A stretch of DNA of 64,000 nucleotides, from positions 186,001-250,000 of the forward strand of contig NZ_MTBP01000001.1 in assembly GCF_002911665.1 (NCBI RefSeq), written 5' to 3'. Under the pieces are notes generated by a model that saw only the letters and a program-made list of their open reading frames with translations, had not been told where the DNA came from and did no database searches. Source of the DNA: Actinomadura rubteroloni (GTDB taxonomy: Bacteria > Actinomycetota > Actinomycetes > Streptosporangiales > Streptosporangiaceae). Shown piece by piece: positions 44,763 to 63,951 of the stretch. The translations under genes were made by a program, and so were the position numbers. How positions within the stretch are numbered: the first letter of the stretch is position 1; every line of letters starts with the position of its first letter.

Positions 44763-44937
44763 TTCGCCGCATCCGGGGGTCCTCCCGGTCGGCGGGCGGC
44801 AGCCCGCGGCTGCCGTGCATATCGTGTAGTGAATCTTCCACCGCCGTTCCGGGCGGCTTTTCCGGGACGGCGCCGCTGGATCGTCCCCAAAGCTGTGAGT
44901 CCCTGCGACCATCACAGCGTGCCCAAGGAGAATGAAC

Positions 44938-45474
44938 ATGGTCCGACGCGTGATGGGTGGAATCGCGCTGGCCGGCGTGCTGGCCGTTTCGGTCGCCGGG
45001 TGCGGCGGCGGTGACGACAAGAAGTCGGGCCCCGAGCTGGCCTGGGCCGGGAAGGTGTGCTCCTACCTGAAGGCGGACACCTCGAAGGTCGCGATGCCGG
45101 GGCTCGACGCCAAGAACGCCAAGGAGGCCAAGGACTCCATGCTGACGTTCATGAAGACCATGAAGACCCGGCTCGCGACCCAGCAGCGCAACCTGGAGAC
45201 GGCCGGGACGCCCCCGGTGGCGTCCGCGAAGCCCGCCTACAACACGGCGCTGGCCAACCTCGCCAAGATCCAGACCCAGCTGACCTCCGCCATCGGCACG
45301 CTGGACAAGGCCAAGGTCACGGACCAGAAGTCGCTGACCAAGGCCCTCAGCCCCTACACCCAGCAGCTCGCGCAGTTCAGCGGGTACCAGGGGCCCGTGA
45401 AGGACCTGTCCACCAACGCGGACCTGAACACCGCGTTCAAGGACTCCCCGCAGTGCTCGGGCCTGACCGCCTGA
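44938..45474 (+). CDS. Small lipoprotein, paralog B
   Basis: A 178-residue lipoprotein: MVRRVMGGIALAGVLAVSVA, then GC (lipobox VAGC, Cys about residue 21). The mature helical part has WAGKVCSYLKADTSKVAMPG, AKPAYNTALANLAKIQTQL, KVTDQKSLTKAL and the final SPQCSGLTA. It parallels the lipoprotein at 22.7 kb in length, Cys placement and motif order. The ATG at 44938 is used because AAGGAG is 7 bases upstream; the ATG at 44932 is too close. It sits downstream of the large FN3 gene. Function unknown. Confidence 0.82.
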   Translation: MVRRVMGGIALAGVLAVSVAGCGGGDDKKSGPELAWAGKVCSYLKADTSKVAMPGLDAKNAKEAKDSMLTFMKTMKTRLATQQRNLETAGTPPVASAKPAYNTALANLAKIQTQLTSAIGTLDKAKVTDQKSLTKALSPYTQQLAQFSGYQGPVKDLSTNADLNTAFKDSPQCSGLTA

Positions 45475-45490: not shown

Positions 45491-45520
45491 CGCCTCCCGG
45501 CTCGTGCGAGCCGGGAGGCG
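45491..45520 (+). terminator. Shared-family hairpin CGCCTCCCGGCTCG-TG-CGAGCCGGGAGGCG (14-bp stem)
   Basis: Perfect 14-bp stem with a 2-base centre, 16 bases after the lipoprotein stop. Exactly the same 30 bases occur at 53421 and 57508, and variants with the same CGCCTCCCGG core occur at 49588 and 59907. Confidence 0.82.
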
Positions 45521-45843
45521 TTCGTGTTTCCGGGGGCGGATCACCTCGCCGCCGCGACGCCCACCCTGACAATGTTCCCTGACAAAATCATCGACCACTT
45601 GCGGACGCTCGCGTTTTTCGCCCTTTCTGCTAACTTGAAAAATCGGGGTCACTGGCATCGAAAACCACGACCAGCCGCGTGCGCACTGTTACCGAACAGT
45701 ATTTTCTGACACTTTCCGACAAGATCAACAAAATGTTCGGAACACAAGGGCGCCGCCCGGTCGTCTTGGCCACTCCACCTGCGAAGACAACGGTCTAACG
45801 TAATGGCGCTTCCCCAGGAAGCTCCCACTACAGGAGGCCGAGT
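45521..45843 (+). promoter_or_regulatory. Long upstream region of S8-RCC1 gene 1, duplicated upstream of gene 3
   Basis: Together with the hairpin (45491-45520) this stretch aligns almost without gaps to 53421-53772; TTG to TTG offset is 7929 bases against 7930 at the hairpin. I estimate over 80 percent identity by eye. Shared landmarks are CGACCACTTGCGGACGCTCG, GAACAGTATTTTCTG, ACTTTCCGACAAGATC and CACTACAGGAGGCCGAG. A candidate -10, TAACGT (gene 3: TAATGT), lies about 60 bases before the start codon with TCCACC/TTCACC 16 bases upstream of it. Confidence 0.65.
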
Positions 45844-48800
45844 TTGTCTTCTCCCCCCGTCATCGGACAGTCACAGAAAAGCCGCCGCAGGCCGCTCGCC
45901 GCGTTAGCGGCGCTGGCGCTCGCCGCGTCCGGCCTCGCGGCTCCCCACGCCGCCGCCGACCCCGCGCCGAAACTGAAGCCGCGCTACGACCACTCCCGCG
46001 AAAAGGGACGGCCCGGCACCAAGGGCCCGCTGCCCAAGGGCTTCTCCCGGACGAGCCTCCAGGTGAAGTTCCGGACGGAACTGAACGTCCGCCTGCACGG
46101 CAACACGCTCACCTCGTCCGACAGTGCGGCGACCGCCGCGATTCGGGCCGCGTTCGCCCGGTACCCCGGTGCGATCATCACGCGGACGTCGCGGCAGTCC
46201 GTGCGGGCCATCGATGATCGGCGCTCCCGGCTGGAGGCGAAGACCGGGCGGGAACTGCCCGACTTCAATTCCTGGTTCTTCGTCACCGTCCCGAAGAACG
46301 GCGAAGGGCTCCTCGCCGCCCTCAACGCGCTCTCCGGAGTGGAGATCGCGCAGGCGCGTCCCGTCATCAAGAGCCCGACCGAGCCGCTGCGCGCCCAGCA
46401 GCTCTACCGGAACGCCGTCGGGTCGCCCGCCGGAACGGGAATCGACGCCGACGCGATCAACAACGTCCCCGGCGGCAAGGGCGACGGGGTCACCGTCGGC
46501 GACGTCGAAGCGGTGGCCAACGCGAACACGGCCCTGTTCGGTATCCAATGGGGTCAGATCGCTGCGGGCCTCGCGCACACGCTCGCCGTCGATGTGGGAC
46601 CGTCCGCGCCGACCGTGTGGGCCACCGGCTCCAACAGCCACGGCGAGCTCGGCGACGGCACCACCACCAGCCGCACCACTCCGGTCCTCGTCTCCGGCCT
46701 GTCCGGGGTGAAGACCGTCGCGGCGGCCAACAGCTACTCCCTCGCGCTCAAGACCGACGGCACCGTCTGGGCCTGGGGATCGAACAGCGTCGGGCAGCTC
46801 GGCGACGGAACCACGACCGAGCGGCACACGCCCGTCCAGGTCAGCGGCATCACCAACGCCACGGCGATCTCGGCCGGATCGGACGGGCACGCGCTCGCCG
46901 TCCTGTCCGACGGAACCGTCAAGGCCTGGGGATCCAACACCAACGGGCAACTCGGCGACGGAACCACCACCAACCGCAGCACGCCCACCACCGTCCCCGG
47001 CCTCACCGGGGTCAAGACGACGTGGGGCGCGGTCGCCGCAGGCGGCGGACAGTCCCTGGCCGTCCTGACCAGCGGCACCGTCAAAGCGTGGGGCACCAAC
47101 AGCAGCGGCCAGCTCGGCGACGGCACCACCACCAACCGCAGCACCCCGGTCAGCGTCCCCGGGATCACCACCGGCAAGCAGGTCGCGGCGGGCGGGTTCC
47201 ACAGCCTCGCCGTCCTCACCGACGGCTCGGTGAAAGCCTGGGGCCTCAACGGATCCGGCCAGCTCGGTGACGGAACCACCACGTCCCGCACCAGTCCGGT
47301 GAACGTCCCGCTGCCCGAACCGGCCGCGAGCGTCGTCGCAGGGGGCTTCCACTCCGCCGCCGAAAGCTACGACCCCGACACGCACGACTACTACTCGGCA
47401 TGGGCCTGGGGCTACAACAACCACGGCCAGGTCGGCGACGGGACCACCACCACCCGGACGAGCCCGACCGCGGTCACCACCGAGGGCTTCGTCACGGCGC
47501 TGGCCGCGGGCGCGCAGTACACCGTCGCGAGCTTCGCCTTCGGGCAGGCGGCGTGGGGTTACAACTCCAGCGGCCAGCTCGGGCTCGGCGACACCACCGA
47601 CCGGACGAGCCCGGTGAGCTGGAACGTCGTCACGAACTCCTGGAACACCTGCCATGAGGAACTGAGCGGACGGCCCGCCCCGGGCGGCGATCCGGTCCGG
47701 GTCCCGGCCACATGGGGTTCGAACTGCCTCGCCAGTTCGCAGACGTCGCACGGCACCGCGGTCGCCGGGATCATCGGGGCGCGGGACGGGAACGGCGCCG
47801 GAATCGCCGGCATCGCCCCCAACGCCGGGCTGCACCTCTCGAACCCGTCGGACTACGTCACCACGCTCGCCGGGCTCGGGTCGGGCGACGTCGTGCTCTA
47901 CGAGTTCAGCCCGGTCATCGGGAGCAAGTGGTACCCCGGTGAGTACGACCCGCTCATCTATGACGCGACGGTCACGGCGACGGCCCAGGGGATCACGGTC
48001 GTCGAGGCCGCCGGGAACGGCTCCAACAACCTCGACGACCCGTCCGACCCCGACGCGGTGACGGTCATGAGCCGTCCCGACTCGGGCGCGATCATGGTGG
48101 GCGCGGGCGCTCCGCCGAGTCCGGGCGGCTCCAACTGCACCGGATCCAGCCCGCTTCCCGAGCGGACGGCGCTGGGCTTCTCGACCTACGGCTCACGTCT
48201 CGACGTCCAGGACTACGGCGCGTGCGTCGCGACGCTCGGCGTGCCGGGCAACCAGGGCCTGACACCGTCCGAGACGGACCCGAACAAGATGTACACGGGG
48301 ACGTTCAACGGGACGTCGAGCGCCAGCGCGATCACGGCCGGGGCGGTCGCCGCGCTCCAGGGCGTGGCGAAGAAGACCGGCTCGGCGCTGCTTCCGGCGC
48401 AGATCCGGCAGTTGCTCAAGCAGACGGGCACCGCGCAGCCCGCGGGCGACCCGCACCACATCGGGCCGCAGCCGAACCTGCGCGCGGCGGTGAACTACCT
48501 GCGCGGCGGTGTCGCGGCGGGGACCAACCACACGCTGGACGTCCGGAACGACGGGACCGTGCGGGCGTGGGGCGCGAACTCCAGCGGGCAACTCGGCAAC
48601 GGCACGACCACGGGCAGCGCGACGTCCGTGCAGGTGTCCGGGCTGACCAACGTGGTCCGGGCGCCCGGTTCGGTCGCGGCCGGGCAGAACCACTCGCTGG
48701 CCGTCCGGGCCGACGGGACGGTCTGGGCCTGGGGCGCGAACGGCAGCGGCCAGCTCGGCAACGGCAGCACCACGGCCAGTTCGACGCCCGTCCAGGTGTC

Positions 48801-49575
48801 GGGGCTGACCGGGGTGAAGGCGGTCGCCGCCGGGCTGAGCTTCTCGCTCGCGCTGAAGAACGACGGCACCGTCTGGGCGTGGGGCGACAACAGCTCGGGG
48901 CAGCTCGGCAACGGCACCACGACGAGCGCCTCCAGCCCCGTCCAGGTCAGCGGGATCACGGACGCGGCCGTCATCGGCGCCGGGTACTCGCACGGCCTGG
49001 CCGTCCGGGCGGACGGTTCGGTGAAGGCGTGGGGCGCCAACTCCAACGGGCAGCTCGGCAACGGCACGACGACCAACAGCGGCACGCCGGTCACCGTGTC
49101 GGGGCTGAGCGGCGTCTCGACGTGGCCCGGTTCCCTCGCGGGCGGGTTCGCCCACTCCCTCGCCGTCCTCGCGGACGGGACGGTCAGGGCGTGGGGCTTG
49201 AACAACAACGGCCAGCTCGGCAACGGCACCACCACGGCGAGCAGCACGCCCGTCACCGTGACGGGGCTCAGCGGTGCGGCCACGGTCGGGGCGGGCGGCT
49301 GGCACAGCGTCGCCGCCGGTACGGCCGGCACCGCCAAGGCGTGGGGGCTCAACGCCAACGGGCAGCTCGGCGACGGAACGACGACGAGCAGCACCACGCC
49401 CGTCAGCGTCGGCGGAAGCGGCAACTTCGCCGGAATCGCCGCCGGGACGTACCACTCCATCGCCGTCCTCTCCGGCGGCGCGCCCTACACGTGGGGCAAG
49501 AACGCGTCCGGCCAGGTCGGCGACGGCACGACCACCGACCGGCCCAGCCCGGTCGCGGTGAGCGGCCTGTCCTGA
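45844..49575 (+). CDS. S8 (subtilisin-family) protease with inserted and C-terminal RCC1 propellers, copy 1
   Basis: A 1243-residue exported protein starting at TTG 45844 (AGGAGG 9 bases upstream). Signal peptide residues 1-38. A propeptide-like region (about 55-170) contains LQVKFRTELNVRLHG and ELPDFNSWFFVTVP. The protease domain opens with GDGVTVGDVE (D220, E222), is broken by seven RCC1 repeats (about 237-598), and resumes at SWNTCHEE (W600, H604). Then SHGTAVAGIIGA has catalytic His636, VVEAAGNG the oxyanion Asn725 and FNGTSSASA the nucleophile Ser825. Conserved Cys lie in NTCHEE, GSNCL, GGSNC and YGACVA. A second seven-blade propeller fills about 892-1243. Glu at the usual Asp position is odd. 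Likely secreted or surface-attached; substrate unknown. Confidence 0.85.
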   Translation: MSSPPVIGQSQKSRRRPLAALAALALAASGLAAPHAAADPAPKLKPRYDHSREKGRPGTKGPLPKGFSRTSLQVKFRTELNVRLHGNTLTSSDSAATAAIRAAFARYPGAIITRTSRQSVRAIDDRRSRLEAKTGRELPDFNSWFFVTVPKNGEGLLAALNALSGVEIAQARPVIKSPTEPLRAQQLYRNAVGSPAGTGIDADAINNVPGGKGDGVTVGDVEAVANANTALFGIQWGQIAAGLAHTLAVDVGPSAPTVWATGSNSHGELGDGTTTSRTTPVLVSGLSGVKTVAAANSYSLALKTDGTVWAWGSNSVGQLGDGTTTERHTPVQVSGITNATAISAGSDGHALAVLSDGTVKAWGSNTNGQLGDGTTTNRSTPTTVPGLTGVKTTWGAVAAGGGQSLAVLTSGTVKAWGTNSSGQLGDGTTTNRSTPVSVPGITTGKQVAAGGFHSLAVLTDGSVKAWGLNGSGQLGDGTTTSRTSPVNVPLPEPAASVVAGGFHSAAESYDPDTHDYYSAWAWGYNNHGQVGDGTTTTRTSPTAVTTEGFVTALAAGAQYTVASFAFGQAAWGYNSSGQLGLGDTTDRTSPVSWNVVTNSWNTCHEELSGRPAPGGDPVRVPATWGSNCLASSQTSHGTAVAGIIGARDGNGAGIAGIAPNAGLHLSNPSDYVTTLAGLGSGDVVLYEFSPVIGSKWYPGEYDPLIYDATVTATAQGITVVEAAGNGSNNLDDPSDPDAVTVMSRPDSGAIMVGAGAPPSPGGSNCTGSSPLPERTALGFSTYGSRLDVQDYGACVATLGVPGNQGLTPSETDPNKMYTGTFNGTSSASAITAGAVAALQGVAKKTGSALLPAQIRQLLKQTGTAQPAGDPHHIGPQPNLRAAVNYLRGGVAAGTNHTLDVRNDGTVRAWGANSSGQLGNGTTTGSATSVQVSGLTNVVRAPGSVAAGQNHSLAVRADGTVWAWGANGSGQLGNGSTTASSTPVQVSGLTGVKAVAAGLSFSLALKNDGTVWAWGDNSSGQLGNGTTTSASSPVQVSGITDAAVIGAGYSHGLAVRADGSVKAWGANSNGQLGNGTTTNSGTPVTVSGLSGVSTWPGSLAGGFAHSLAVLADGTVRAWGLNNNGQLGNGTTTASSTPVTVTGLSGAATVGAGGWHSVAAGTAGTAKAWGLNANGQLGDGTTTSSTTPVSVGGSGNFAGIAAGTYHSIAVLSGGAPYTWGKNASGQVGDGTTTDRPSPVAVSGLS
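46552..47637 (+). repeat. RCC1 propeller (7 repeats) inserted in the S8 catalytic domain
   Basis: Seven units of about 50 codons, each with a variant of AVAAG-x-x-HSLAV, DGTVKAWGSN, GQLGDGTTTNR and a closing V-x-G-(L/I). The seventh ends just before the resumed protease motif WNTCHEE. The equivalent inserts lie at about 50338-51425, 54475-55545 and 60919-62001 in the other three copies. Confidence 0.85.
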
Positions 49576-49587
49576 CGCACGTCCGAT

Positions 49588-49626
49588 GACGCCTCCCGGC
49601 CGCGCGCCACGCGGCCGGGAGGCGTC
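49588..49626 (+). terminator. 17-bp hairpin of the CGCCTCCCGG family
   Basis: GACGCCTCCCGGCCGCG pairs with CGCGGCCGGGAGGCGTC around CGCCA, 13 bases after the stop of S8-RCC1 gene 1 and 30 bases before the start of gene 2. Confidence 0.85.
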
Positions 49627-49655
49627 CCACACCACCCCGTACAGGAGGCAACAGC

Positions 49656-52600
49656 TTGTCCTCTCCCCCCATGACCAAGAAGAGACGCAGACCTCTCGCC
49701 GTCCTCGCCGCGCTGGCGCTCGCCGCCTCCGGCCTGGCGGCCCCGCACGCCGCCGCCGCGCCGACGCCGAAGCTCGCGCCCGGCTACGACTTCTCGCGGG
49801 AGAAGGGCGGGCCGGGCACGCACGGACCGCTGTCGAAGAACTTCTCCACGAACACGATCAAGGTGAAGTTCCGCACGGAGCGTCAGGTCCGCCTGCGTTC
49901 CGGACGGTTCTCCGCGTCCGCTTCGTCGGACACCGCGCAGATTCGGAAGATCCTCGCGGACTACCCCGGCGCCACGATCCGTCCCCTGTCGAGCAGGCCG
50001 GAGAAGGCCATCAGCGACGAGCGGGCTCGGCTGGAGAAGCGCAGCGGCCGGGCGCTCCCGGACCTGAACTCCTGGTTCGTCATCACGGTGCCGAAGGGCA
50101 TCGAGACCCTGCTCAGCCGACTGAACGCGCTTCCTTCCGTCGAACTCGCCCGTGCCGCGTCGAAGTCGACGCCCGCCGACGAGACGTTCCGGCCCGCTCA
50201 GCTTTACCGCAACGCGGTCGGCGCGGCTGCCGGGACCGGGCTCGACGTCGACGCCATCAACTCGGTGCCCGGCGGAAAGGGCGACGACGTCACCGTCGCC
50301 GACGCCGAGGGGGTCCAGTCGCTGCTCGTCGCGTACCGTTTCGGTGCCGTCGCGGCCGGGACCGCGCACAGCGTGCTCGTTGATCAGGACGGGTTCGTCT
50401 GGGCGACCGGCTCGAACGACAACGGCCAGCTCGGCGACGGAACCAAGACCAACAGCAAGATCGTCCGGAAGGTCGCGGGGCTGAGCGACGTCAAGGCCGT
50501 CGCCGCCGCAGGCGACTACACCGTCGCGCTCACGAACAGCGGCACGGTCTGGGCGTGGGGCGACAACGCGAACGGCCAGCTCGGCAACGGGACGACGACC
50601 GACAGCCCCACTCCCGTCCAGGTCACGGGCCTCCTGAATGCCACGGCGATCTCGGCGGGTCCGGACGGACACGTTCTCGCGGTCCTTTCCAGCGGCCAGG
50701 TCAAAGCCTGGGGGGCCAACGGGTCGGGGCAACTCGGCGACGGAACGACGACCCAGCGGACGAGCCCGGTGACCGTCGCCGGGCTGAGCGGTGTGGCCAC
50801 GGGATTCGGAGCCGTCGGCGCCGGGAACGGCCACTCGCTGGCGGTCCTGGCCGACGGCCGGGTCCAGGCATGGGGCGGCAACGCCTCCGGCCAGCTCGGG
50901 GACGGCACGACGACCGGCCACCTCGCCCCGGCGAATGTGACGGGGATCAGCGATGCCAAGCAGGTAGCCGCCGGAGGCGCGCACAGCCTCGCTCTCACCT
51001 CGGCGGGAGCGGTCCGCGCGTGGGGGGCCAACCAGCTCGGCCAGCTCGGCGACGGAACGACGACGAGCCGCCTCACGCCGGTCAACATCTCGCTTTCCGA
51101 GAAGGCGACGAGCGTCGCCGCCGGAAGCACCAACAGCGCCGCGACGACTTACGATGCCGTCACAGGCGATGGCACCGGAAATATTTGGGTGTGGGGCGAC
51201 AACAGTTACGGCCAGGTCGGAAACGGCACGACCACGAATGCCGCGACCCCCGCACAGGTCTCTGGCATCGGGGCGGTGTTCAGCGTCGCCCTCGGAGCGC
51301 GCCATTCCGTTGCCGACTCCTACTTCGGATTCACGGTGTGGGGCTCGAACTCCGTCGGACAGTTCGGCACCGGCGACACGACGAGCCACCTCGACCCGAA
51401 ACTCGCCGAGCTCGCTCTCAGTTCGTGGAACACCTGCCATGAGGAGTTCACCAATCGCCCCGCTATTGCCGGGCCACCGGTCATCGTCCCGCCGGTGGCA
51501 GGGAATACTTGTGCGGGTACTTCAAGTCAAGTCGAGCACGGCACGGCCGTAGCCAGCATCATCGGTGCGCGCGCCGACAACAATGCCGGCATCGCCGGCA
51601 TTGCGCCGAACACCCATCTCCAGTTGACGTTGGAAAGCCACCTGAGCGAGTCGATCGCCGCACTCCATCCCGGCGATGTCCTGCTCTATGAAACACACGC
51701 CGGTGGCACCCTTAACGGACTCTACCCCAAAGAACTCGAGCCTGACACATATGCACTCACCCAAATCGCTGTCGCGAACGGAATCACCGTAGTCGAAGTT
51801 GCCGGCAACGGTGGAAAGAACCTCGACGACCCGGCCGACTTCGACGCGCATACCATCATGGGCCGCCCCGACTCCGGCGCTATCATGGTGGGAGCGGGTG
51901 CACCGCCCAGCCCTAGCGGAACCAATTGCCTCGGCGCCAATCCACCAGTGGAACGGTCGGCTATCAACCTCTCTTGGTGGGGGTCCAATTATGGATCGCG
52001 CGTGGACGTTCAGGCGTACGGCTCGTGCGTCGCGGCGGCGGGCACGCTCACTTACCGTGATCTGACGTCGAACGTGAACGACCCGAACAAGGTCTACAGA
52101 AGCATGTTCAACGGCACGTCCAGTGCCAGCGCGATCATGGCGGGTGCGGTCGCGACGGTTCAGGGAGTGGCGAAGAAGTACGGCGGCCCGCTGGAGCCCG
52201 CTCAGGTCCGGCAGATCCTCAAGCAGACCGGCACCCCGCAGGCTCCGGGCGACACCCGGCACATCGGGCCGCAGCCGAACCTGCGCGCCGTCGTGAGCTA
52301 TCTGCGGGGTGGGCTTGCTGTGGGGAGCAGCCATGCGATCTCGGTGCGGAATGACGGGAGTGTGTGGGCTTGGGGGCTCAACTCCAGTGGGCAGCTCGGG
52401 AACGGGACCACCGTCAACAGCACCTCGGGGGTGCAGGTCTCCGGGTTGAGCGGTGTCGTGCGGGCGCCCGGGGCTGTCGCGGCCGGGCAGAACCATTCGT
52501 TGGCCGTCCGGGCTGATGGGACTGTTTGGGCTTGGGGGGCCAACGGGTCGGGGCAGCTCGGGAACGGAAGTACCGCCAACAGTTCCGTGCCCGTCCAGGT

Positions 52601-53378
52601 CAGTGGGTTGACCGGGGTCAAGGCGGTCGCGGCGGGGCTCAGTTTCTCACTCGCGCTCAAGAGTGACGGGACTGTTTGGGCTTGGGGGGCCAACGCTTCC
52701 GGGCAGCTCGGGAACGGGTCCACGACCGGGAGTTCCACGCCGGTTCAGGTCAGTGGGATCAGTGATACCGCCGTCATCGGGGCCGGGTCTTCGCATGGGC
52801 TCGCCGTTCGGGCGGACGGGACGGTCAAAGCCTGGGGCGCCAACTCCAACGGGCAACTCGGGAACGGGTCGAACACCAACAGCAGTACGCCCGTCAGCGT
52901 TTCCGGGTTGAGCGGGGTTTCCACGTGGGCCGGGTCGCTTGCGGGTGGATTCGCCCATTCGGTCGCGCTGCTCGCGGACGGGACCGTTCGCGCTTGGGGG
53001 CTCAACAATTACGGGCAGCTCGGGAACGGGTCCACGACCTCCAGCAACATCCCCGTCACCGTCAGCGGGCTTACCGGTGTCGCCACGGTCGGGGCCGGTG
53101 GGTGGCACAGTGTCGCCTCCGGGACGTCCGGGGTGTCCAAGGCGTGGGGGATGAACACCAGCGGGCAGCTCGGGGACGGGTCCACCACGAGCAGTTCGAC
53201 GCCCGTCGTCGTCAGCGACTGGGGGCCGCTCGCGGGTGTCGCGGCCGGCGGGAGCTCCACGACCGGCACCACTCCGGCCGGGACCGTCTTCGCCTGGGGG
53301 CTCAACTCCTCCGGGCAGCTCGGGGACGGGACGACCACGAATCGCAGCACGCCCGTCTTCGTCAACGACCTTCCGTGA
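49656..53378 (+). CDS. S8 protease with inserted and C-terminal RCC1 propellers, copy 2
   Basis: A 1240-residue paralog of the preceding gene, TTG start with CAGGAGG upstream and the same MSSPP N-terminus. The signal peptide ends near PHAAAA. Protease pieces are DDVTVADAE (D216, E218), a seven-blade RCC1 insert (about 229-589), SWNTCHEEF (W591), VEHGTAVASIIGA (His628), VVEVAGNGG (Asn718) and FNGTSSASA (Ser822). The C-terminal propeller runs from about 885. Base usage changes inside the gene: about 51160-52000 is AT-richer, and from about 52310 to the end codons shift to GGG, GTT and TTG, unlike copies 1 and 4. This suggests a mosaic origin. Only 80 bases separate it from copy 1. Confidence 0.85.
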   Translation: MSSPPMTKKRRRPLAVLAALALAASGLAAPHAAAAPTPKLAPGYDFSREKGGPGTHGPLSKNFSTNTIKVKFRTERQVRLRSGRFSASASSDTAQIRKILADYPGATIRPLSSRPEKAISDERARLEKRSGRALPDLNSWFVITVPKGIETLLSRLNALPSVELARAASKSTPADETFRPAQLYRNAVGAAAGTGLDVDAINSVPGGKGDDVTVADAEGVQSLLVAYRFGAVAAGTAHSVLVDQDGFVWATGSNDNGQLGDGTKTNSKIVRKVAGLSDVKAVAAAGDYTVALTNSGTVWAWGDNANGQLGNGTTTDSPTPVQVTGLLNATAISAGPDGHVLAVLSSGQVKAWGANGSGQLGDGTTTQRTSPVTVAGLSGVATGFGAVGAGNGHSLAVLADGRVQAWGGNASGQLGDGTTTGHLAPANVTGISDAKQVAAGGAHSLALTSAGAVRAWGANQLGQLGDGTTTSRLTPVNISLSEKATSVAAGSTNSAATTYDAVTGDGTGNIWVWGDNSYGQVGNGTTTNAATPAQVSGIGAVFSVALGARHSVADSYFGFTVWGSNSVGQFGTGDTTSHLDPKLAELALSSWNTCHEEFTNRPAIAGPPVIVPPVAGNTCAGTSSQVEHGTAVASIIGARADNNAGIAGIAPNTHLQLTLESHLSESIAALHPGDVLLYETHAGGTLNGLYPKELEPDTYALTQIAVANGITVVEVAGNGGKNLDDPADFDAHTIMGRPDSGAIMVGAGAPPSPSGTNCLGANPPVERSAINLSWWGSNYGSRVDVQAYGSCVAAAGTLTYRDLTSNVNDPNKVYRSMFNGTSSASAIMAGAVATVQGVAKKYGGPLEPAQVRQILKQTGTPQAPGDTRHIGPQPNLRAVVSYLRGGLAVGSSHAISVRNDGSVWAWGLNSSGQLGNGTTVNSTSGVQVSGLSGVVRAPGAVAAGQNHSLAVRADGTVWAWGANGSGQLGNGSTANSSVPVQVSGLTGVKAVAAGLSFSLALKSDGTVWAWGANASGQLGNGSTTGSSTPVQVSGISDTAVIGAGSSHGLAVRADGTVKAWGANSNGQLGNGSNTNSSTPVSVSGLSGVSTWAGSLAGGFAHSVALLADGTVRAWGLNNYGQLGNGSTTSSNIPVTVSGLTGVATVGAGGWHSVASGTSGVSKAWGMNTSGQLGDGSTTSSSTPVVVSDWGPLAGVAAGGSSTTGTTPAGTVFAWGLNSSGQLGDGTTTNRSTPVFVNDLP

Positions 53379-53419
53379 CGTGAACGGGTCGAGCGGCCTG
53401 TCCTGACGGACGTCCGATG

Positions 53420-53451
53420 ACGCCTCCCGGCTCGTGCGAGCCGGGAGGCGT
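53420..53451 (+). terminator. Shared-family hairpin (15-bp stem)
   Basis: Same 30-base perfect hairpin as at 45491, here extended by one A-T pair, 42 bases after the stop of S8-RCC1 gene 2. Confidence 0.84.
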
Positions 53452-53772
53452 TCGTGTTTCCGGGGGCGGATCACCTCGCCGCCGCGATGCCCACGCCGAC
53501 ATTGTTCTCCGACGAAATAATCGACCACTTGCGGACGCTCGCATTTTTCTCCATTTCTGCTAATTTGAAAAATTGGGCTATTGGTGTCTAAAACCACGAC
53601 CGGCCGTGTGCGCATCGCTACCGAACAGTATTTTCTGGCACTTTCCGACAAGATCGACGAAACCCTCGGAACACAAGGGCACCGACCGGTCGTCTCCGTC
53701 ACTTCACCTGTGAAGCTATTGGTCTAATGTAATGGTGTTTTCCCAGGAAGATGCCACTACAGGAGGCCGAGC
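53452..53772 (+). promoter_or_regulatory. Long upstream region of S8-RCC1 gene 3, duplicate of that of gene 1
   Basis: Colinear with 45521-45843. Candidate -10 TAATGT follows TTCACC by 16 bases; the TTCAC-CT-GTGAA inverted repeat is perfect here and decayed upstream of gene 1. AT-rich islands are shared at the same positions, which argues against simple drift of useless spacer. Confidence 0.65.
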
Positions 53773-56700
53773 TTGTCCTCTCCCCCCGTCATCGGACCGT
53801 CACAGAAAAGCAGACGCAGACCTCTCGCCGTGCTCACGGCGCTGGTCCTCGCGGCGTCTGGACTCGCGGCCCCTGGCGCTGCCGCCGATTCTCAGCCGAA
53901 AACGAAGGCGCTGTACGACCACGGCCGGGACAAAGGGCGGCTGCCCGGTACGAAGGCTCCGCTGCCTGCGGGTTTCTCGACCACCCAGCTCGAAGTGAAA
54001 TTCCGGTCCGATCGGACGGTGCGCGTTCGCGGCGGGCGGCCCGTGGCCGAGAAGCCCGAGGACGCCAAGGCGATCCAGAAGCTCTTGAAAGAGCATCCGG
54101 GCGCTTGGATGCGGCCGCTGACGTCTCGGCCGGAGGCGGAGATCACCGCCCAGCGGGTCAAGGCGGAGAAGCGTACGGGCCGGTCTCTCCCCGATCTCAA
54201 TTCGTGGTTCGTCATCAGCGATCCCGGCGGCATCGAGGGGCTGCTGACAGAACTCAACCGGCTACCGTCCGTGGAGATCGCGCAGGCCCGGCCGAAGACG
54301 AAACCGACCACCGAGCCGTTGCAGTGGCGGCAGGTCTACCGCAATGCCGCGGGCGCGGCGACCGGCACCGGAGTGGACGCGGACGCCGCCAATTCCCTCC
54401 CCGGAGGCAAGGGCGACGGGGTCACCGTCTACGACATCGAAGGCGAAGGGGAGTTGCTGCCCGTCGCGACGACGCGGGGGTCGGTGGCGGCGGGCGACAA
54501 GCATTCGTTGTGGCTGGACGGCGAACCGACCCCTTCGGTGTGGGCTTTCGGCGACAACGGCAAAGGCCAGCTCGGCGACGGCACCACCACCGCGCGGAAG
54601 GTCATGGTCAAGCTGCCGGGGCTGACGGGGGTCAAGGCGCTCGCGGCGGCCGGGAACTACTCGCTGGCGTTGAAGAGCGACGGGACCGTGTGGGCGTGGG
54701 GTGAGAACACGCACGGTCAGCTCGGCGACGGCACCACCACCGAACGCCACACCCCCGTCCAGGTGACCGGGATCAGCACCGCCGTCGCCGTCAGCGCGGG
54801 CATCGACGGCCATGCGCTCGCCGTGCTGGCGGACGGCACGGTCAAGGCGTGGGGCAACAACGACCACAGCCAGCTCGGCGACGGGACCACGACCGACCGG
54901 CCGACCCCGGTGACGGCCCTGACCGGCGCGTCCCCGGCGTACGGCGCGGTCGCGGCCGGTGGCGGGCACTCGGTCGCGATCCTGGCCGGGGGCACGATCA
55001 AGGCCTGGGGCCGCAACGACCACGGGCAGCTCGGGAACTCCACGACCACCGATTCCCCCACGCCGGTGACGGTCACCGGCCTGTCGACCGCCTCGACCGT
55101 CGCGGCGGGGAGCCTGCACACGCTCGCGTCGCTGGCCGACGGGACCGTCCGCTCCTGGGGGGACAACAGCCGCAAGCAGCTCGGTGCCGCCACCAGCGGT
55201 GACGCGACGGCCCCGATCACCGTGACGAGCTGGCAGATGACCAATGTCAGCAAGGTGCTGGCGAACGCCTTCAACAGCGCCGCCGCGGCGAACGATTCCC
55301 TGCCCATCGTGTGGGGCGCCAACGAGAGCGGGCAGCTCGGCGACGGAACCACGACCGACCGGCTCGCGCCCGCCTTCACCTATTCGAGCGCGACGAACGT
55401 TCCGCTGGCGCTCGGCGCGCACCACGCCTTCCTGGCCGACCGCACGCAGCGCGCGGGCGCCTGGGGCGCTAACGACGCGGGACAGTTGGGCGACGGCACG
55501 ACCATCAACCGAACACGACCCGCGTACGTCCAGCACTATCTGCACCCCATCAACACCTGTCACGAAGAGTTCGCCGACCGGCCGGCGGTCGCGGGACCGA
55601 TCGGATCGGTGGGCCCGAAGCTCACCGGCCTTTGCGACAGCACCGAATCGACCTTTCATGCCACCGCCGTCGCGAGCATCATCGGCGCGGACGACGAGAA
55701 CGGTGTCGGCCTGGCCGGGATCGCTCCCCACGCCGCGATCAAATCCGACGGGACCGTGTACCTGGCCGACGCGGTGGCGCAGGCGCAGCCCGGCGACGTG
55801 ATCCTCTACGAGCAGGTGACCTTCGCCAACAACGCCCCTAAGAGCTACCCATTGGAGTGGGAACCGGCGGTCTACGACCTCACGGTCTCGGCGGTCGCGC
55901 ATGGGGTCACCGTCGTCGAACCGGCGTCCAACGACGCCGTCAACCTTGACGACGGCAGCGACCCCAACGCCAAGATCATCATGGACCGGCCCGACTCCGG
56001 TGCGATCATGGTCGGCGCGGGCCAACCCCTCACGTCCGGCGGCAGCACCTGCTACGTGGGTTCAAAGCCGCAGCTCTCGGCCGAGAGCTATTCCACCTAC
56101 GGCACGCGCGTCGATGTCCAAGCCGACGGCAGTTGCGTCTGGGCAGCATCCGTGGACATGCCCAATGGCCACTATCCCGCTTCGGAGACGGACCCCAACA
56201 AGTTCTACACGGAGGCGTTCAGCGGGACTTCCTCGGCCAGCGCGATCATCGCGGGCACGGTGGCGGCGCTCCAGGGCGTGGCCAAGAACTACGGCCAGGT
56301 CCTCGCCCCCGGCCGGGTGCGCGACCTCCTCAAGCAGACCGGCACGCCGCAGCCCGCCGGCGACCCGCATCACGTCGGCCCCAAGCCGAACCTGCGGGCG
56401 GCCATCACCTACCTGCGCGGCGGCATCGCCAGCGGTGAACGGAATTCGCTGGGCGTCAAGAACGACGGGACGGTGTGGGCCTGGGGCGAGAACGACACCG
56501 GACAGCTCGGTGACGGGACCACCACCGACCGCCCCACGCCCGTCCAGGTCACGGGGCTGACAGGAGTGCGGCGGGGTCCGGGCGCGGTCGCGACGGGTTA
56601 CGGCGGCCACTCCCTCGCCGTCAAAGCGGACGGCACGGTGTGGGCCTGGGGCTCGAACTCCTCCGGCCAGCTCGGCGACGGTACGACCACCAGCCGCACC

Positions 56701-57483
56701 ACGCCCGCCCAGGTACCGGGATTGAACGGCGTCGTCGCCGTGGCCGCCGGTTCCAACTGCTCTTTGGCGCTCAAGGCGGACGGCACCGTCTGGGGCTGGG
56801 GCTCGAACGCCGCCGGGCAGCTCGGCGACGGCACCACCACGCAGCGCCTCACTCCCGTCCAGGCGAGCGGCCTGACCGGTGTCAAGGCGATCGCGGCCCG
56901 CTCCAACCACGCGCTGGCGGTGCTGTCCGACGGGACGGTCCGCAGTTGGGGGAACATGTATTACAACGGCGTCAGCGACACCCACCTCGTCCCCACGACG
57001 GTCAGCGGCCTCACCGGCGTGGCCACCTGGCCCGGTTCCGTCGCCGCCGGAACCCAGCACAGTGTCGTGACCAAGGACGATGGCACCGTCTGGGGCTGGG
57101 GCGAGAACGGCCGCGGCCAGCTCGGCGACGGGACGACGACCTCCCGTTCGGCTCCCGTCCAGGCCACCGGCCTGACCGGAGTCGCCGCGGTGGGCGCGGG
57201 CGCGTGGACGTCTTTCGCGACCAAGGCCAATGGAACCGTGTCCGCCTGGGGATACAACGGCAATGGCCAGCTCGGCCTCGGCACCACCCAGACTCCGGTC
57301 ACCACCCCGACCGCCCTCACCGGCATGACCGCGGGTTCGGGAATCACCGGCGGCGATTACCACACGCTCGCCGTCCAGCCCAACGGGACCATTTACGCCT
57401 GGGGTTCCAATTACAGTGGCCAGCTCGGCGACGGCACCACCACCAACCGGCCCAGCCCGGGGACGGTGATCGGCACTCCCTGA
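53773..57483 (+). CDS. S8 protease with inserted and C-terminal RCC1 propellers, copy 3
   Basis: A 1236-residue paralog, TTG start with AGGAGG upstream, MSSPPVIGPSQKSRRR N-terminus. Protease pieces are DGVTVYDIEGEGE (D221, E223), a seven-blade insert (about 235-591), INTCHEEF (His597 in the motif, Trp replaced), TFHATAVASIIGA (His629, with HAT instead of HGT), VVEPASND (Asn720, G-N replaced by S-N) and FSGTSSASA (Ser820). The C-terminal propeller runs from about 885 to 1236. It is the most diverged copy around the active site yet keeps His, Asn and Ser. Its upstream region is nearly that of copy 1. Confidence 0.84.
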   Translation: MSSPPVIGPSQKSRRRPLAVLTALVLAASGLAAPGAAADSQPKTKALYDHGRDKGRLPGTKAPLPAGFSTTQLEVKFRSDRTVRVRGGRPVAEKPEDAKAIQKLLKEHPGAWMRPLTSRPEAEITAQRVKAEKRTGRSLPDLNSWFVISDPGGIEGLLTELNRLPSVEIAQARPKTKPTTEPLQWRQVYRNAAGAATGTGVDADAANSLPGGKGDGVTVYDIEGEGELLPVATTRGSVAAGDKHSLWLDGEPTPSVWAFGDNGKGQLGDGTTTARKVMVKLPGLTGVKALAAAGNYSLALKSDGTVWAWGENTHGQLGDGTTTERHTPVQVTGISTAVAVSAGIDGHALAVLADGTVKAWGNNDHSQLGDGTTTDRPTPVTALTGASPAYGAVAAGGGHSVAILAGGTIKAWGRNDHGQLGNSTTTDSPTPVTVTGLSTASTVAAGSLHTLASLADGTVRSWGDNSRKQLGAATSGDATAPITVTSWQMTNVSKVLANAFNSAAAANDSLPIVWGANESGQLGDGTTTDRLAPAFTYSSATNVPLALGAHHAFLADRTQRAGAWGANDAGQLGDGTTINRTRPAYVQHYLHPINTCHEEFADRPAVAGPIGSVGPKLTGLCDSTESTFHATAVASIIGADDENGVGLAGIAPHAAIKSDGTVYLADAVAQAQPGDVILYEQVTFANNAPKSYPLEWEPAVYDLTVSAVAHGVTVVEPASNDAVNLDDGSDPNAKIIMDRPDSGAIMVGAGQPLTSGGSTCYVGSKPQLSAESYSTYGTRVDVQADGSCVWAASVDMPNGHYPASETDPNKFYTEAFSGTSSASAIIAGTVAALQGVAKNYGQVLAPGRVRDLLKQTGTPQPAGDPHHVGPKPNLRAAITYLRGGIASGERNSLGVKNDGTVWAWGENDTGQLGDGTTTDRPTPVQVTGLTGVRRGPGAVATGYGGHSLAVKADGTVWAWGSNSSGQLGDGTTTSRTTPAQVPGLNGVVAVAAGSNCSLALKADGTVWGWGSNAAGQLGDGTTTQRLTPVQASGLTGVKAIAARSNHALAVLSDGTVRSWGNMYYNGVSDTHLVPTTVSGLTGVATWPGSVAAGTQHSVVTKDDGTVWGWGENGRGQLGDGTTTSRSAPVQATGLTGVAAVGAGAWTSFATKANGTVSAWGYNGNGQLGLGTTQTPVTTPTALTGMTAGSGITGGDYHTLAVQPNGTIYAWGSNYSGQLGDGTTTNRPSPGTVIGTP

Positions 57484-57507
57484 GCGCCTGATTCCTGCGG
57501 ACGCGTC

Positions 57508-57537
57508 CGCCTCCCGGCTCGTGCGAGCCGGGAGGCG
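57508..57537 (+). terminator. Shared-family hairpin (14-bp stem)
   Basis: Identical 30-base palindrome to those at 45491 and 53421, 24 bases after the stop of S8-RCC1 gene 3; the next bases TTCGTGTTTCC are also shared with the other copies. Confidence 0.84.
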
Positions 57538-57562
57538 TTCGTGTTTCCGACGGGAAAGAAAA

Positions 57563-57610
57563 GAGGCGCCCCCGTGTTCTCTGATGGGGTCAGGAACATG
57601 GGGGCGCCTC
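57563..57610. terminator. 17-bp hairpin, probably terminating the DUF397 gene
   Basis: GAGGCGCCCCCGTGTTC pairs with GAACATGGGGGCGCCTC with a single non-Watson-Crick pair and a 14-base loop. It lies 15 bases beyond the stop of the minus-strand DUF397 gene. Confidence 0.78.
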
Positions 57611-57624
57611 CCTGCGGGGATGGG

Positions 57625-57810
57625 TCAAATGGCGCGGATGGCCGCCGCGAAGTGGCGGAACTCGGCACGGTCCACCAGCAGCTTCGGGCCTTCCGGGTCC
57701 TTGCTGTCGCGGACCGCCACCGTGCCGGGAACGGTCGCCAACTCGATGCAGTGGTCACCGTTCTGGCCGCTGCGGGACGACTTGCGCCAGCGGAGGTTGT
57801 TCAGGTCCAT
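57625..57810 (-). CDS. DUF397-domain protein
   Basis: A 61-residue protein with the complete DUF397 pattern: LRWRKSSRSGQNGDHCIELA, then VAVRDSKDPEGPKL and a final F-x-x-F-(A)-x-A-I. DUF397 proteins are small actinomycete partners of XRE-type regulators, and several pairs control differentiation and antibiotic production as toxin-antitoxin-like or anti-regulator couples. The ATG overlaps the end of the upstream XRE gene by 10 bases, so translation is coupled. Confidence 0.92.
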   Translation of the reverse strand: MDLNNLRWRKSSRSGQNGDHCIELATVPGTVAVRDSKDPEGPKLLVDRAEFRHFAAAIRAI

Positions 57811-58589: not shown

Positions 58590-58735
58590 CTGACCGTTCC
58601 TCCCGATTGAACCGGCCTTAGATGATCACCGGGTACGGCTCCGGTGATCTCGGACTCTGGGTGACATCGACGTCACGCTACGCCCACGGTGTGCGTTGAT
58701 GGAAGTCGTTTCCGCGAATCAATTCGGAGGAATCG

Positions 58736-59179
58736 GTGACGATCATGAAGCAAAGGCCCGCTCCACCCCGCCCGCCCACCGACTTCTCGTCGGTGATCTT
58801 CCATTCCATGCCGGAATCAGCCCAAGATGCCCGAAATTTCGTAACGGCGTGGTTTATGCGGCGCGGATACGACACGTCCACCACCGAGAGCGCGCGACTC
58901 GTCGCCAGCGAATTGGTCACCAACGCCCATCTCCACGCGACTCGCCCCGGTGACCCGATCGACGTCCGCCTCTACCTCAGCGACTTCGGGCCGGTGATCG
59001 AGGTCGCCGACCCGTCCGACCGGATGCCCGCACCGGCCGACGACGGCGACGCCCTCGCCCTGCGCGGGCGCGGCCTCGCGCTCGTCGCGGCGCTCAGCCG
59101 CCGCTGGGGCGCGAACCCGGTCGTCGGCGGCGGCAAGGTCGTCTACGCCGTCCTCGCCGCCGGAAAGGACGACGCGTGA
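58736..59179 (+). CDS. RsbW-like ATP-binding regulatory protein
   Basis: A 147-residue GHKL ATPase: helix SMPESAQDARNFVTAWFMRR, N box ARLVASELVTNAHLHAT, then DPSDRMP and the G2 box LRGRGLALVAALSRRWG. In actinomycetes this family sits beside XRE-DUF397 pairs and is thought to act as a phosphotransfer or anti-sigma-type partner. The GTG at 58736 has GGAGG 5 bases upstream; the ATG at 58745 is the alternative. Divergent promoters lie in 58590-58735. The stop overlaps the next start (GTGA). Confidence 0.88.
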   Translation: MTIMKQRPAPPRPPTDFSSVIFHSMPESAQDARNFVTAWFMRRGYDTSTTESARLVASELVTNAHLHATRPGDPIDVRLYLSDFGPVIEVADPSDRMPAPADDGDALALRGRGLALVAALSRRWGANPVVGGGKVVYAVLAAGKDDA

Positions 59180-59454: not shown

Positions 59455-59550
59455 ACGTGGCGGGGCCGCGCGCACCGTCCCGGACGGCGCGGCCCCGCCC
59501 GGCATCACCCCGTCCGAAGCACGACCGAACCGAGAATCGGAACGACGACC

Positions 59551-60204: not shown

Positions 60205-63200
60205 GTGTCCTCTCCCTCCGTGCGCGGGCGACCACCGGCCGCATGGCGACGGCCGCTGGTCGCGCTCACCGCGCTGGCCCTCGGCGCGACCAGCCTCGGC
60301 ATCACCGCGAGCCCGGCCGACGCCCAGGCCAAACCGCGCCTGAAAGCCCTCTACGACCACTCTCACGACAAGGGCAAGCCGGGAACGCGCGGCCCCCTGC
60401 CCAAGGGTTTCTCCACGACGACCCTCAAGGTGAAATTCCAGAGCGAGGCCAAGGTCCGGCTGCGCGGCGGAAAGCTCACCGGCGCCGACTCGGGCGCCAC
60501 CGCGCAAATACAGAAAGTGCTCGCGAAGTATCCCGGTGCGACGGTCACGCGGCTGTCGCAGCGCTCGGAGAAGAAGCTCGACGACGAACGCGCGGCCCTT
60601 CAGGAGAAGACGGGCCGGGAAATGCCCGACTTCAACTCCTGGTACGTCGTCCGCGTGCCGAACCGTCTGGCCGACCTCGTCACGGACCTCAACGCGCTGC
60701 CGTCCGTCGAGATCGCGCAGGCCCAGCCCCGGCTGAAGAACATGTCCGAGCCGCTGCGCGGTCAGCAGCGCTACCGCAACCCGGTCGGCGACCCGGCCGG
60801 GACGGGCATGGACGTCGACGGCATCAACAGCGTCCCCGGCGGCAAGGGCGACAACATCACCGTCGCCGACGTCGACTCCGGCACCGTCCAGTCCGCCGCC
60901 TTCGGCCTGGAGTGGGGCGACATGGCCGCGGGCCTCGGGCACACGCTCGCCGTCGACCTCGGGCCGTCCGCGCCGACCGTGTGGGCCACCGGCTCCAACA
61001 ACCACGGCCAGCTCGGCGACGGAACCACCACCAACCGGACGACGCCCGCCGAGATCCCCGGCCTGTCCGGGGTGAAGGTCGTCGCGGCGGCGGGCGACTA
61101 CTCCCTGGCCCTCAAGACCGATGGAACGGTCTGGGCGTGGGGCTCGAACGGCGTCGGGCAGCTCGGCGACGGCACCACGACCGAGCGGCACACACCCGTC
61201 CAGGTCAGCGGCATCACCAACGCCACCGCGATCTCGGCGGGTTCGGACGGGCACGCGCTCGCCGTCCTCGCCGACGGGACCGTCAAGGCGTGGGGATCCA
61301 ACAGCACCGGCCAGCTCGGCGACGGAACCACCACCAACCACAGCACGCCCATCACCGTGCCCGGCCTCACCGGGGTCAAGACGACGTGGGGCGCGGTCGC
61401 CGCGGGCGGCGGACAGTCCCTGGCCGTCCTGACCAGCGGCACGATCAAGGCGTGGGGGTCCAACAGCTCCGGCCAGCTCGGGGACGGGACCACCACCAAC
61501 CGCACCACTCCGGTCAGCGTCTCCGGCATCACGACGGGCAAGCAGGTCGCGGGGGGCGGGTTCCACAGCCTCGCCGTCCTCACCGACGGCTCGGTGAAGG
61601 CCTGGGGGCTCAACGGATCCGGGCAGCTCGGCGACGGGACCACCACGTCCCGGAACACCCCGGTGAGCGTCCCGCTGTCCGAGCCGATCGGCAGCGTCGT
61701 CGCCGGCGGCTTCCACAGCGCCGCCCAGGCCTACGACCCCGTCACGCACGACCACTACTCGGCGTGGGCCTGGGGCTACAACAGCCACGGCCAGGTCGGC
61801 GATGGAACCACCACCAACCGGACGAGCCCGACCGAACTGACCAACACGGGGTTCATCACCGCGCTGGCCGCCGGCGCGCAGCACACCGTGTCGGAGGTCG
61901 CGATCGGCAACGCCGCGTGGGGCTACAACTCCAGCGGCCAGCTCGGGCTCGGCGACACCACCGACCGGACCCACGAGACCGTCTGGGACGTGCGCGCCAA
62001 CTACTGGAACACGTGCCACGAAGAGTTCACGGGACGTCCGAGTCCGGGCGGCGACCCCACCCGGATCCACACGACATGGGGCTCGAACTGCCTGTCCTCG
62101 ACGCAGAGCGAGCACGGCACCGCGATCTCCGGGATCATCGGCGCCCGGGACGACAACAACGCGGGCATCGCGGGCATCGCGCCGCACGCCAAGCTGCTGC
62201 TCTCCGGCACCGGCGCCGACATCGTCGACACCATCGACGCGCTCGGCGCGGGTGACGTCATCGCCGCGCCCCTCGCCTGGGTCGTCGACGGCAAGGAATA
62301 CCCGTTCGAGTGGGAAGGGTCGGTCTACGACGCGATCGTCCAGGCGACCGCGCGGGGCACCACGTTCATCGAGGCCGGCGGGAACAAGGGCACCAACCTG
62401 GACGACCCGGCCGACGCCAACGCCGTGACGATCATGAGCCGCCCCGACTCGGGCGCGATCATCGCGGGCGCGGGCGCTCCGCCGAGCCCCGGCGGTTCCA
62501 ACTGCCTCGGCTCCAGCCCGCCCGCCGAGCGGACGGCGATCAACCTCGCGGGCTGGTGGGCGTCCAGCTACGGCTCGCGGGTGGACCTCCAGGCGTACGG
62601 CTCGTGCGTCGCAACGCTCGGCGTCACCGGCTACCAGGACCTCACGCCGTCCGAGACCGACCCCAACAAGATGTACCGGGGCACGTTCAACGGCACGTCC
62701 AGCGCCACCGGCATCCTCGGCGGCGTCGTCGCGACGGTCCAGGGCGTGGCGAAGAAGTACGGCACGCCGCTGACGCCGCAGCAGGTCCGGCAGCTCCTCA
62801 AGCAGACCGGCACGCCGCAGCCCGCCGGCGACACCCGGCACATCGGTCCGCAGCCGAACCTCCGCGCCGCCGTGGCCGCCCTGCGCGGCGGTGTGTCCGC
62901 CGGCGGCGACCACACGCTGGACGTCAAGAACGACGGCACGGTGTGGGCGTGGGGCTCCAACGCGTCCGGTCAGCTCGGCGACGGGACGACGACCAACCGG
63001 ACGACGCCCGTCCAGGTGTCCGGGCTGACGAACATTGCGCGGACGATCGGTTCGATCGACGCGGGCGGCAACCATTCGCTCGCGGTCAAGAGCGACGGGA
63101 CGGTCGTGGCGTGGGGGTCCAACGCGTCCGGGCAGCTCGGCGACGGGACCACCACCAACCGCACCGCGCCGGTCGCGGTCAGCGGGCTCACCAACGTGCG

Positions 63201-63951
63201 CGCGGTGTCGGCGGGCGACAACTTCTCGCTGGCGCTGAAGAACGACGGGACCGTCTGGGCGTGGGGCAACAACGCCAACGCGCAGCTCGGCGACGGGACG
63301 ACGACGAACCGGACGACGCCGGTCCAGGTGTCCGGGCTGACGTCCGTGGCGTCCATCGGGACGGGCCAGTACCACGGCCTCGCCGTCCGCACGGACGGGA
63401 CCGTCCGTGCGTGGGGCGACAACGGGTACGGCCAGCTCGGCGACGGCACCACCACCGACCGGCCGACGCCGGTCACCGTCAGCGGGCTCAGCGGCGTCTC
63501 GACGTGGCCCGGCGCGGTCGCGGGCGGCCTCGGCCACTCGCTGGCCCTGCTGGCCGACGGCTCCGTGAAGGCGTGGGGCCTCAACGCCAGCGGCGAGATC
63601 GGGGACGGAACCACCACCAACCGGACCACTCCGGTCGCCGTCAGCGGGCTCAGCGACATCACGAGCCTCAGCGCGGGCGCCTTCCACAGCGTCGCAGTGC
63701 GGGCCAACGGCGCCGCCATGGCGTGGGGCTCCAACCTCAACGGCTCGCTCGGGGACGGCACCACCACGACCCGGACGACCCCGGTGACCGTCACGGGCCT
63801 CGGCAGCCTCTCGGGCATCGCGGCCGGGAACCTGCACACGGTCGCGGTCCGTCCCGCCGGGGCGGTCTACGGCTGGGGCGACAACAACAACGGTGAACTC
63901 GGCGACGGGACCACCACCGATCGATACACCGCGGTAGCGATCCTGCCGTGA
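60205..63951 (+). CDS. S8 protease with inserted and C-terminal RCC1 propellers, copy 4
   Basis: A 1248-residue paralog. The GTG at 60205 is chosen because AAAGGAG precedes it and it gives the same MSSP start as copies 1-3; an upstream in-frame start at 60160 is less likely. Protease pieces are DNITVADVDSG (D222, D224), a seven-blade RCC1 insert (about 239-599), YWNTCHEEF (W601), SEHGTAISGIIGA (His637), FIEAGGNKG (Asn727) and FNGTSSATG (Ser832). Here the Asp position keeps the canonical D-S-G, unlike the other copies. The same four Cys positions are present. The C-terminal propeller fills about 900-1248. Confidence 0.86.
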   Translation: MSSPSVRGRPPAAWRRPLVALTALALGATSLGITASPADAQAKPRLKALYDHSHDKGKPGTRGPLPKGFSTTTLKVKFQSEAKVRLRGGKLTGADSGATAQIQKVLAKYPGATVTRLSQRSEKKLDDERAALQEKTGREMPDFNSWYVVRVPNRLADLVTDLNALPSVEIAQAQPRLKNMSEPLRGQQRYRNPVGDPAGTGMDVDGINSVPGGKGDNITVADVDSGTVQSAAFGLEWGDMAAGLGHTLAVDLGPSAPTVWATGSNNHGQLGDGTTTNRTTPAEIPGLSGVKVVAAAGDYSLALKTDGTVWAWGSNGVGQLGDGTTTERHTPVQVSGITNATAISAGSDGHALAVLADGTVKAWGSNSTGQLGDGTTTNHSTPITVPGLTGVKTTWGAVAAGGGQSLAVLTSGTIKAWGSNSSGQLGDGTTTNRTTPVSVSGITTGKQVAGGGFHSLAVLTDGSVKAWGLNGSGQLGDGTTTSRNTPVSVPLSEPIGSVVAGGFHSAAQAYDPVTHDHYSAWAWGYNSHGQVGDGTTTNRTSPTELTNTGFITALAAGAQHTVSEVAIGNAAWGYNSSGQLGLGDTTDRTHETVWDVRANYWNTCHEEFTGRPSPGGDPTRIHTTWGSNCLSSTQSEHGTAISGIIGARDDNNAGIAGIAPHAKLLLSGTGADIVDTIDALGAGDVIAAPLAWVVDGKEYPFEWEGSVYDAIVQATARGTTFIEAGGNKGTNLDDPADANAVTIMSRPDSGAIIAGAGAPPSPGGSNCLGSSPPAERTAINLAGWWASSYGSRVDLQAYGSCVATLGVTGYQDLTPSETDPNKMYRGTFNGTSSATGILGGVVATVQGVAKKYGTPLTPQQVRQLLKQTGTPQPAGDTRHIGPQPNLRAAVAALRGGVSAGGDHTLDVKNDGTVWAWGSNASGQLGDGTTTNRTTPVQVSGLTNIARTIGSIDAGGNHSLAVKSDGTVVAWGSNASGQLGDGTTTNRTAPVAVSGLTNVRAVSAGDNFSLALKNDGTVWAWGNNANAQLGDGTTTNRTTPVQVSGLTSVASIGTGQYHGLAVRTDGTVRAWGDNGYGQLGDGTTTDRPTPVTVSGLSGVSTWPGAVAGGLGHSLALLADGSVKAWGLNASGEIGDGTTTNRTTPVAVSGLSDITSLSAGAFHSVAVRANGAAMAWGSNLNGSLGDGTTTTRTTPVTVTGLGSLSGIAAGNLHTVAVRPAGAVYGWGDNNNGELGDGTTTDRYTAVAILP

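Follow-up and report, generated by a model that had tools for sequence, protein, structure and literature searches.

The closely similar stretches of DNA that precede genes 1 and 3 of a tandem array of four S8-RCC1 peptidase genes in Actinomadura rubteroloni are very probably a recombination tract between sister genes rather than a conserved regulatory RNA. Within the array, gene conversion or unequal crossing-over would have put the same module, made up of the preceding gene's terminator, a promoter-bearing intergenic region, a ribosome-binding site, and the start of a signal peptide, before both genes. The copying would have taken place near, and probably slightly before, the split from Actinomadura rayongensis, after which the two copies would have drifted at about the neutral rate. 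The right end of the tract would fall in the signal peptide/propeptide region, and the gene bodies behind it would come from much older paralogs that are themselves mosaics. The gap between leader identity and synonymous identity would thus arise because the pieces differ in age and not through selection on the leader.

The shared stretch within the S8-RCC1 array

Coordinates refer to the window, the whole 64,000-nucleotide stretch of DNA that was analyzed, and all features described are on the forward (+) strand. The upstream gene (44932..45474) codes for a lipoprotein-like protein of 180 amino acids with no Pfam match, and its ortholog is syntenic in A. rayongensis (92% amino acid identity; 0.90 synonymous identity). 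A terminator scan placed the predicted intrinsic terminator of this gene, with a 13-bp stem and a TTCGTGTTTC tail, at 45491..45530 (hairpin at 45491-45520, followed by the T-rich tail), which is the left end of the tract. Between this terminator and the start of gene 1 lie approximately 313 bases of AT-richer, promoter-bearing intergenic DNA (leader 1; 45531..45843). This region closes with the block CCACTACAGGAGGCCGAG (45825..45842), which is identical in leader 1, leader 3, and the leader of the homologous A. rayongensis gene Ga and which contains the ribosome-binding site AGGAGG (45832-45837), with a TTG start 6 nt further. Gene 1 (45844..49575) encodes a secreted S8 peptidase with RCC1 repeats (Pfam S8 and RCC1). 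Gene 2 (49656..53378), also S8-RCC1, has a 3' third orthologous to that of Ga and is preceded by an 80-nt spacer (49576..49655) with a different terminator-like hairpin and the ribosome-binding site TACAGGAGGC; the leader is absent there, as an earlier note on this DNA had recorded. Behind the gene 2 stop follow a gene-1-type 3'-end remnant (AGCGGCCTGTCCTGACG.ACGTCCGATGACGCCTCCCGG; 53379..53420), a second copy of the terminator, which now ends gene 2 and forms the left end of the copied tract (53421..53460), and leader 3, the copy of leader 1 (53461..53772). Gene 3 (S8-RCC1; 53773..57483) has a body more diverged than any other in the array (56% amino acid identity and 0.50 fourfold-site identity to gene 1), and a third copy of the terminator with the first bases of the tract lies behind it (57508..57549). 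Gene 4 (S8-RCC1; 60205..63951) is the ortholog of A. rayongensis Gb.

In genes 1 to 4, RCC1-type repeats occur inside the S8 peptidase and again behind it. With the motifs read by eye, the inner repeats apparently lie between the segments of the catalytic Asp (GDGVTVxDxE) and His (HGTAVAxIIGA), and such a beta-propeller-like insertion within the catalytic domain of a subtilase seems unusual. Window positions 57550-59900, a variable island at which A. rayongensis differs, contain small genes of regulator type (HATPase and MerR/HTH_17 matches); between its S8-RCC1 genes, that species has a gene for a patatin-like phospholipase and another that is protein-kinase-like (L042:4844-8217).

Global alignment of 45491-45843 with 53421-53772 gave 305 identical bases out of 352 aligned (86.6%) and one 1-base gap, in agreement with the single gap and more than 80% identity that had been read by eye. 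The differences comprised 33 transitions and 14 transversions, which were evenly spread and unclustered, and there was one indel base per 47 substitutions, compared to about one gap run per 6.6 substitutions in average spacers. The GC content of the whole stretch was 0.56 to 0.59, versus 0.71 for the window. With the terminator excluded, leaders 1 and 3 were identical at 265 of 312 positions (84.9%), significantly above the 0.50 identity at fourfold sites of genes 1 and 3 (Fisher test, P = 1e-24; synonymous identity was also about 0.50), and the earlier note's observation therefore holds by its own refuting condition, a leader identity no higher than synonymous-site identity. The description of a leader of about 350 bases conserved far beyond the coding sequence was accurate in part: the stretch is real and the identity of the leader is high, but its first 40 or so bases belong to the upstream gene as its transcription terminator, and the similarity extends past the start of the gene through the first 14 codons (90% at the nucleotide level) before it fades, with third-position identities of 86% in codons 0 to 14, 62% in codons 14 to 48, and 46% in codons 48 to 90.

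A whole-genome search (6.47 Mb, 7 contigs) found two full copies of the stretch only, and its first 42 bases were found a third time behind gene 3, at 57508-57549. Further copies were sought in the genome and plasmids and none were found, and a mobile-element origin was rejected on that ground. A. rayongensis was the only one among 65 searched genomes of the genus with any part of the leader; other genus-wide DNA matches (approximately 40 to 50 bits) fell on the start of the coding region and none on the leader.

Divergence of the leader relative to A. rayongensis

An excess of leader identity over synonymous identity fits both a selected leader and a leader younger than the gene bodies. The genome used for comparison was that of A. 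rayongensis DSM 102126, a close relative, in which the orthologous upstream gene is followed by the same terminator and then by Ga. Leader 1 is orthologous to the Ga leader, since the syntenic, orthologous upstream gene anchors both. The Ga leader retains only the last 146 or so bases, and the remaining approximately 150 of the 313 are replaced by about 20 unrelated bases. Over the 146 comparable bases, leader 1 and Ga were identical at 126 (0.863; 20 differences), leaders 1 and 3 differed at 24, and leader 3 and Ga differed at 32. By site pattern, leader 1 paired with Ga at 17 sites and with leader 3 at 13, and leader 3 paired with Ga at 5, which resolves the order of copying events weakly.

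Neutral divergence between the two species was calibrated over approximately 104 kb of synteny, with simple Jukes-Cantor and Nei-Gojobori estimates. Between-species identity was 0.866 at fourfold sites (12,648 sites) and 0.898 in pooled spacers (28 orthologous spacers). The identity of leaders 1 and 3 (0.849) was not significantly different from the fourfold value (Fisher test, P = 0.40) and was slightly below that of the orthologous spacers (P = 0.01). The distal 150 or so bases that Ga lacks were 0.85 identical between leaders 1 and 3, and the core was 0.84 identical. Most of the leader thus appears to be neutral DNA copied around the species split, because its identities are at the neutral level, its substitutions are evenly spread, the ratio of nonsynonymous to synonymous change (pN/pS) in its longest shared open frame is 1.01, and the part missing from Ga is as alike as the rest.

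The probable promoter region and readings based on selection

The leader is most likely an ordinary promoter region with a short 5' untranslated region (UTR), to judge from its sequence. A candidate core promoter in leader 1 (45774..45801) consists of the -35 hexamer TCCACC, 16 nt, and the -10 hexamer TAACGT; its counterpart in leader 3 (53703..53730), placed by alignment position and sequence, reads TTCACC, 16 nt, TAATGT, and the Ga leader has TTGACC/TAACGT. The TAACGT/TAATGT hexamer at 45796 was the only TAnnnT kept in all three leaders with a usable -35 element (16-nt spacer), and the candidate is not significant alone (14% of column shuffles equal it). A promoter at 45774..45801 is a reasonable guess and would imply a 5' UTR of approximately 35 to 40 nt. 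A sigma-70 scan match in leader 1 (45706-45734) was dropped because its second hexamer is lost in leader 3. Genes 1 (with gene 2) and 3 are probably driven from similar promoters and similarly expressed, and gene 2 may depend on read-through from gene 1, since its 80-nt spacer is without the leader. The gene 4 leader (59937-60204) is unrelated to leaders 1 and 3 and is 77% identical to the Gb leader, a value below the neutral expectation despite a conserved block common to both (CTGGACTGATCAT.TT.ATCAATT.CAACTAACGTGT; window 59979-60018), which is a likely promoter. A distant likeness of leaders 1 and 3 to the gene 4 leader was set aside as chance (a 35-base match in leader 3 was reached by 9 of 500 shuffles, and leader 1 gave no support).

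The earlier note had also proposed a functional long 5' UTR, a regulatory RNA, or a shared operator set. A leader that dates back as far as the genes and that purifying selection has preserved, whether as a long structured 5' UTR or as a cis-regulatory RNA, would account for an identity of 0.85 far above the flanking-gene synonymous identity of 0.50, for the few indels, and for one 17-base and one 18-base block that are invariant in leader 1, leader 3, and Ga, but it is highly improbable given the remaining results. With a leader of the same age as the gene bodies, evolving at about a fifth (0.2) of the neutral rate, 4.4 differences would be expected between leader 1 and Ga in 146 bases, whereas 20 were seen (Poisson P = 5e-8, for one outgroup genome, with equal constraint assumed in both species). 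About half of the leader (approximately 150 of 313 bases) is missing in A. rayongensis, the rest is at neutral divergence, and the substitutions are unclustered, all of which speaks against a functional long 5' UTR. Nor was a regulatory RNA borne out: folding z-scores of -1.23 and -1.45 for the two leaders were unremarkable relative to shuffled sequence, and an Rfam search at a permissive threshold returned no family at its gathering score, with sub-threshold SrbA matches on the terminator hairpin. In a consensus structure from only three sequences, 1 of 51 predicted pairs showed a two-sided change, with a positive (unfavorable) covariation term. A small protein or leader peptide encoded within the leader is scarcely conceivable. 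The longest shared open frame (45652-45798 and 53581-53727) has 48 codons and the same end point in both copies, but its pN/pS of 1.01, the spread of differences over codon positions (9/10/7), and a third-position GC content of 0.62 to 0.65, compared with 0.84 to 0.97 in genes 1 and 3 taken by quarters, speak against coding. Shared operator sites that coregulate genes 1 and 3, with similarity kept or repeatedly restored by selection, are unlikely, although less so than either of these. Both genes do carry the same promoter-bearing region, both copies retain the candidate promoter, and the block CACTTTCCGACAAGATC occurs in both leaders and has no exact copy elsewhere in the genome, but nothing stronger was supported: divergence overall is at the neutral rate, the distal half is dispensable in Ga, and a search for operator repeats yielded weak ones, with repeats and inverted repeats mostly differing between the copies. 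Short operator sites may exist inside the core, as far as three compared sequences indicate, and some constrained sites could underlie the AT-rich composition and the two invariant blocks of 17 and 18 bases.

Gene mosaicism and relation to known recombining paralogs

Recombination between sister genes, the favored explanation, is recorded in the gene bodies as well. Codon columns 317 to 594 of gene 1 are of the gene-4 type (83% of polymorphic sites match gene 4; P < 1/400). Columns 900 to 1262 of gene 2 are 86 to 99% identical at the nucleotide level to the tail of Ga, and the front of Ga (the first 90 or so codons) groups with gene 1, with an exchanged segment at columns 26 to 74; Ga therefore consists of a gene-1-type front and a gene-2-type tail. 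A Sawyer-type segment test supported exchange for gene 1 with gene 4, gene 2 with Ga, and gene 1 with Ga. Third-position GC content in gene 2 was 0.75 in the third quarter versus 0.85 to 0.91 in the rest of the gene, and a similar drop was found in Ga. At columns 960 to 1160, gene 2 was approximately 77 to 92% identical to gene 1 at the protein level, with synonymous sites near saturation.

Terminator hairpins are located at the seams of the array. The 30-bp hairpin has exactly three genomic copies, all within the array (before gene 1 and behind genes 2 and 3), and in A. rayongensis the same hairpin follows Ga, with unrelated sequence beyond. The left end of the tract lies within the 30-bp terminator, identical to that behind gene 2, and at the right end identity fades within homologous signal-peptide codons; the terminator repeats, together with homologous coding DNA at the 5' end, may have been the pairing sequences for exchange. 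The tract has the marks of gene conversion or unequal crossing-over, in that the paralogs are far more alike within it than in its flanks (0.849 versus 0.50), its divergence fits neutral drift since copying (unclustered, pN/pS of 1.0, at the species-level fourfold value), and both of its ends are in sequence common to donor and recipient. The recent local gene conversion that the earlier note had listed among its options is thus supported by the mosaicism, the neutral-rate divergence, and the terminators at the seams; the exact mechanism of recombination and the direction of copying are presumptive. The remnant at 53379..53420, whose string is also present at the gene 1 stop (49559-49600) and, in a diverged copy, behind Ga, appears to be a recombination scar. 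The 3' flank of gene 3 (57484-57549) resembles that of the lipoprotein-like gene which precedes gene 1 (TGA.CGCCTGATTCC...CCGCCTCCCGG), is closest to the A. rayongensis version of that flank, and would be another such scar at a terminator.

A variant of the main explanation, compatible with it and different only in which part moved, is that a whole unit of leader and gene was duplicated in tandem and that the bodies were later overwritten from older paralogs, with the leader left over. Gene 1 has a middle part that plainly belongs to the gene-4 type, and the tract ends at repeated terminators, as unequal crossing-over predicts, but no donor came to light for the gene 3 body, which has diverged further than any other, and this variant is a tentative possibility short of even chances. 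It is very unlikely, by comparison, that the array deals one promoter and secretion-signal module to divergent protease bodies via recombination at repeated terminators; if it does, new mosaic proteases would come under common control, in an expression-linked diversification system of a free-living actinomycete.

Under recombination between sister genes, spacer identity in excess of flanking synonymous identity can mislead, as one species suggests a selected RNA and a second reveals a neutral tract. In tandem paralogs, promoters and signal peptides can differ in history from the protein bodies behind them, and these separate histories matter for ortholog calling and for the prediction of regulation in such arrays.

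The closest precedent for the shared leader is found in recombining bacterial paralog pairs such as PE_PGRS17 and PE_PGRS18, and the Actinomadura case is real but ordinary. These neighboring paralogs of Mycobacterium tuberculosis have documented gene conversion and near-perfect upstream noncoding homology from position -235 (PMC1762029). Both systems are tandem secreted or surface repeat-protein paralogs of a high-GC actinomycete with alike upstream DNA and exchanged segments. In M. tuberculosis, the event is directly visible among strains of a single species, and the exchange was seemingly without the upstream region (PMC1762029), whereas the Actinomadura event is deduced from two species, is most visible upstream, and involves far more diverged bodies. 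In regulatory switching, or horizontal regulatory transfer, intergenic regions are replaced separately from genes, and a source in the same genome is allowed (PMC5890482). As in that process, the intergenic region here has a history unlike that of the gene behind it and was moved by recombination, with leader 1 orthologous to the Ga leader and the gene bodies mostly paralogous; that study compares one locus between strains, whereas two paralogous loci of one genome are concerned here. The array also resembles concerted evolution of prokaryotic paralogs (PMC6053082), in which recombination makes paralogs more alike than their age predicts, but here only the 5' module was homogenized, and leader 1 still resembles its A. 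rayongensis counterpart no less than it does leader 3.
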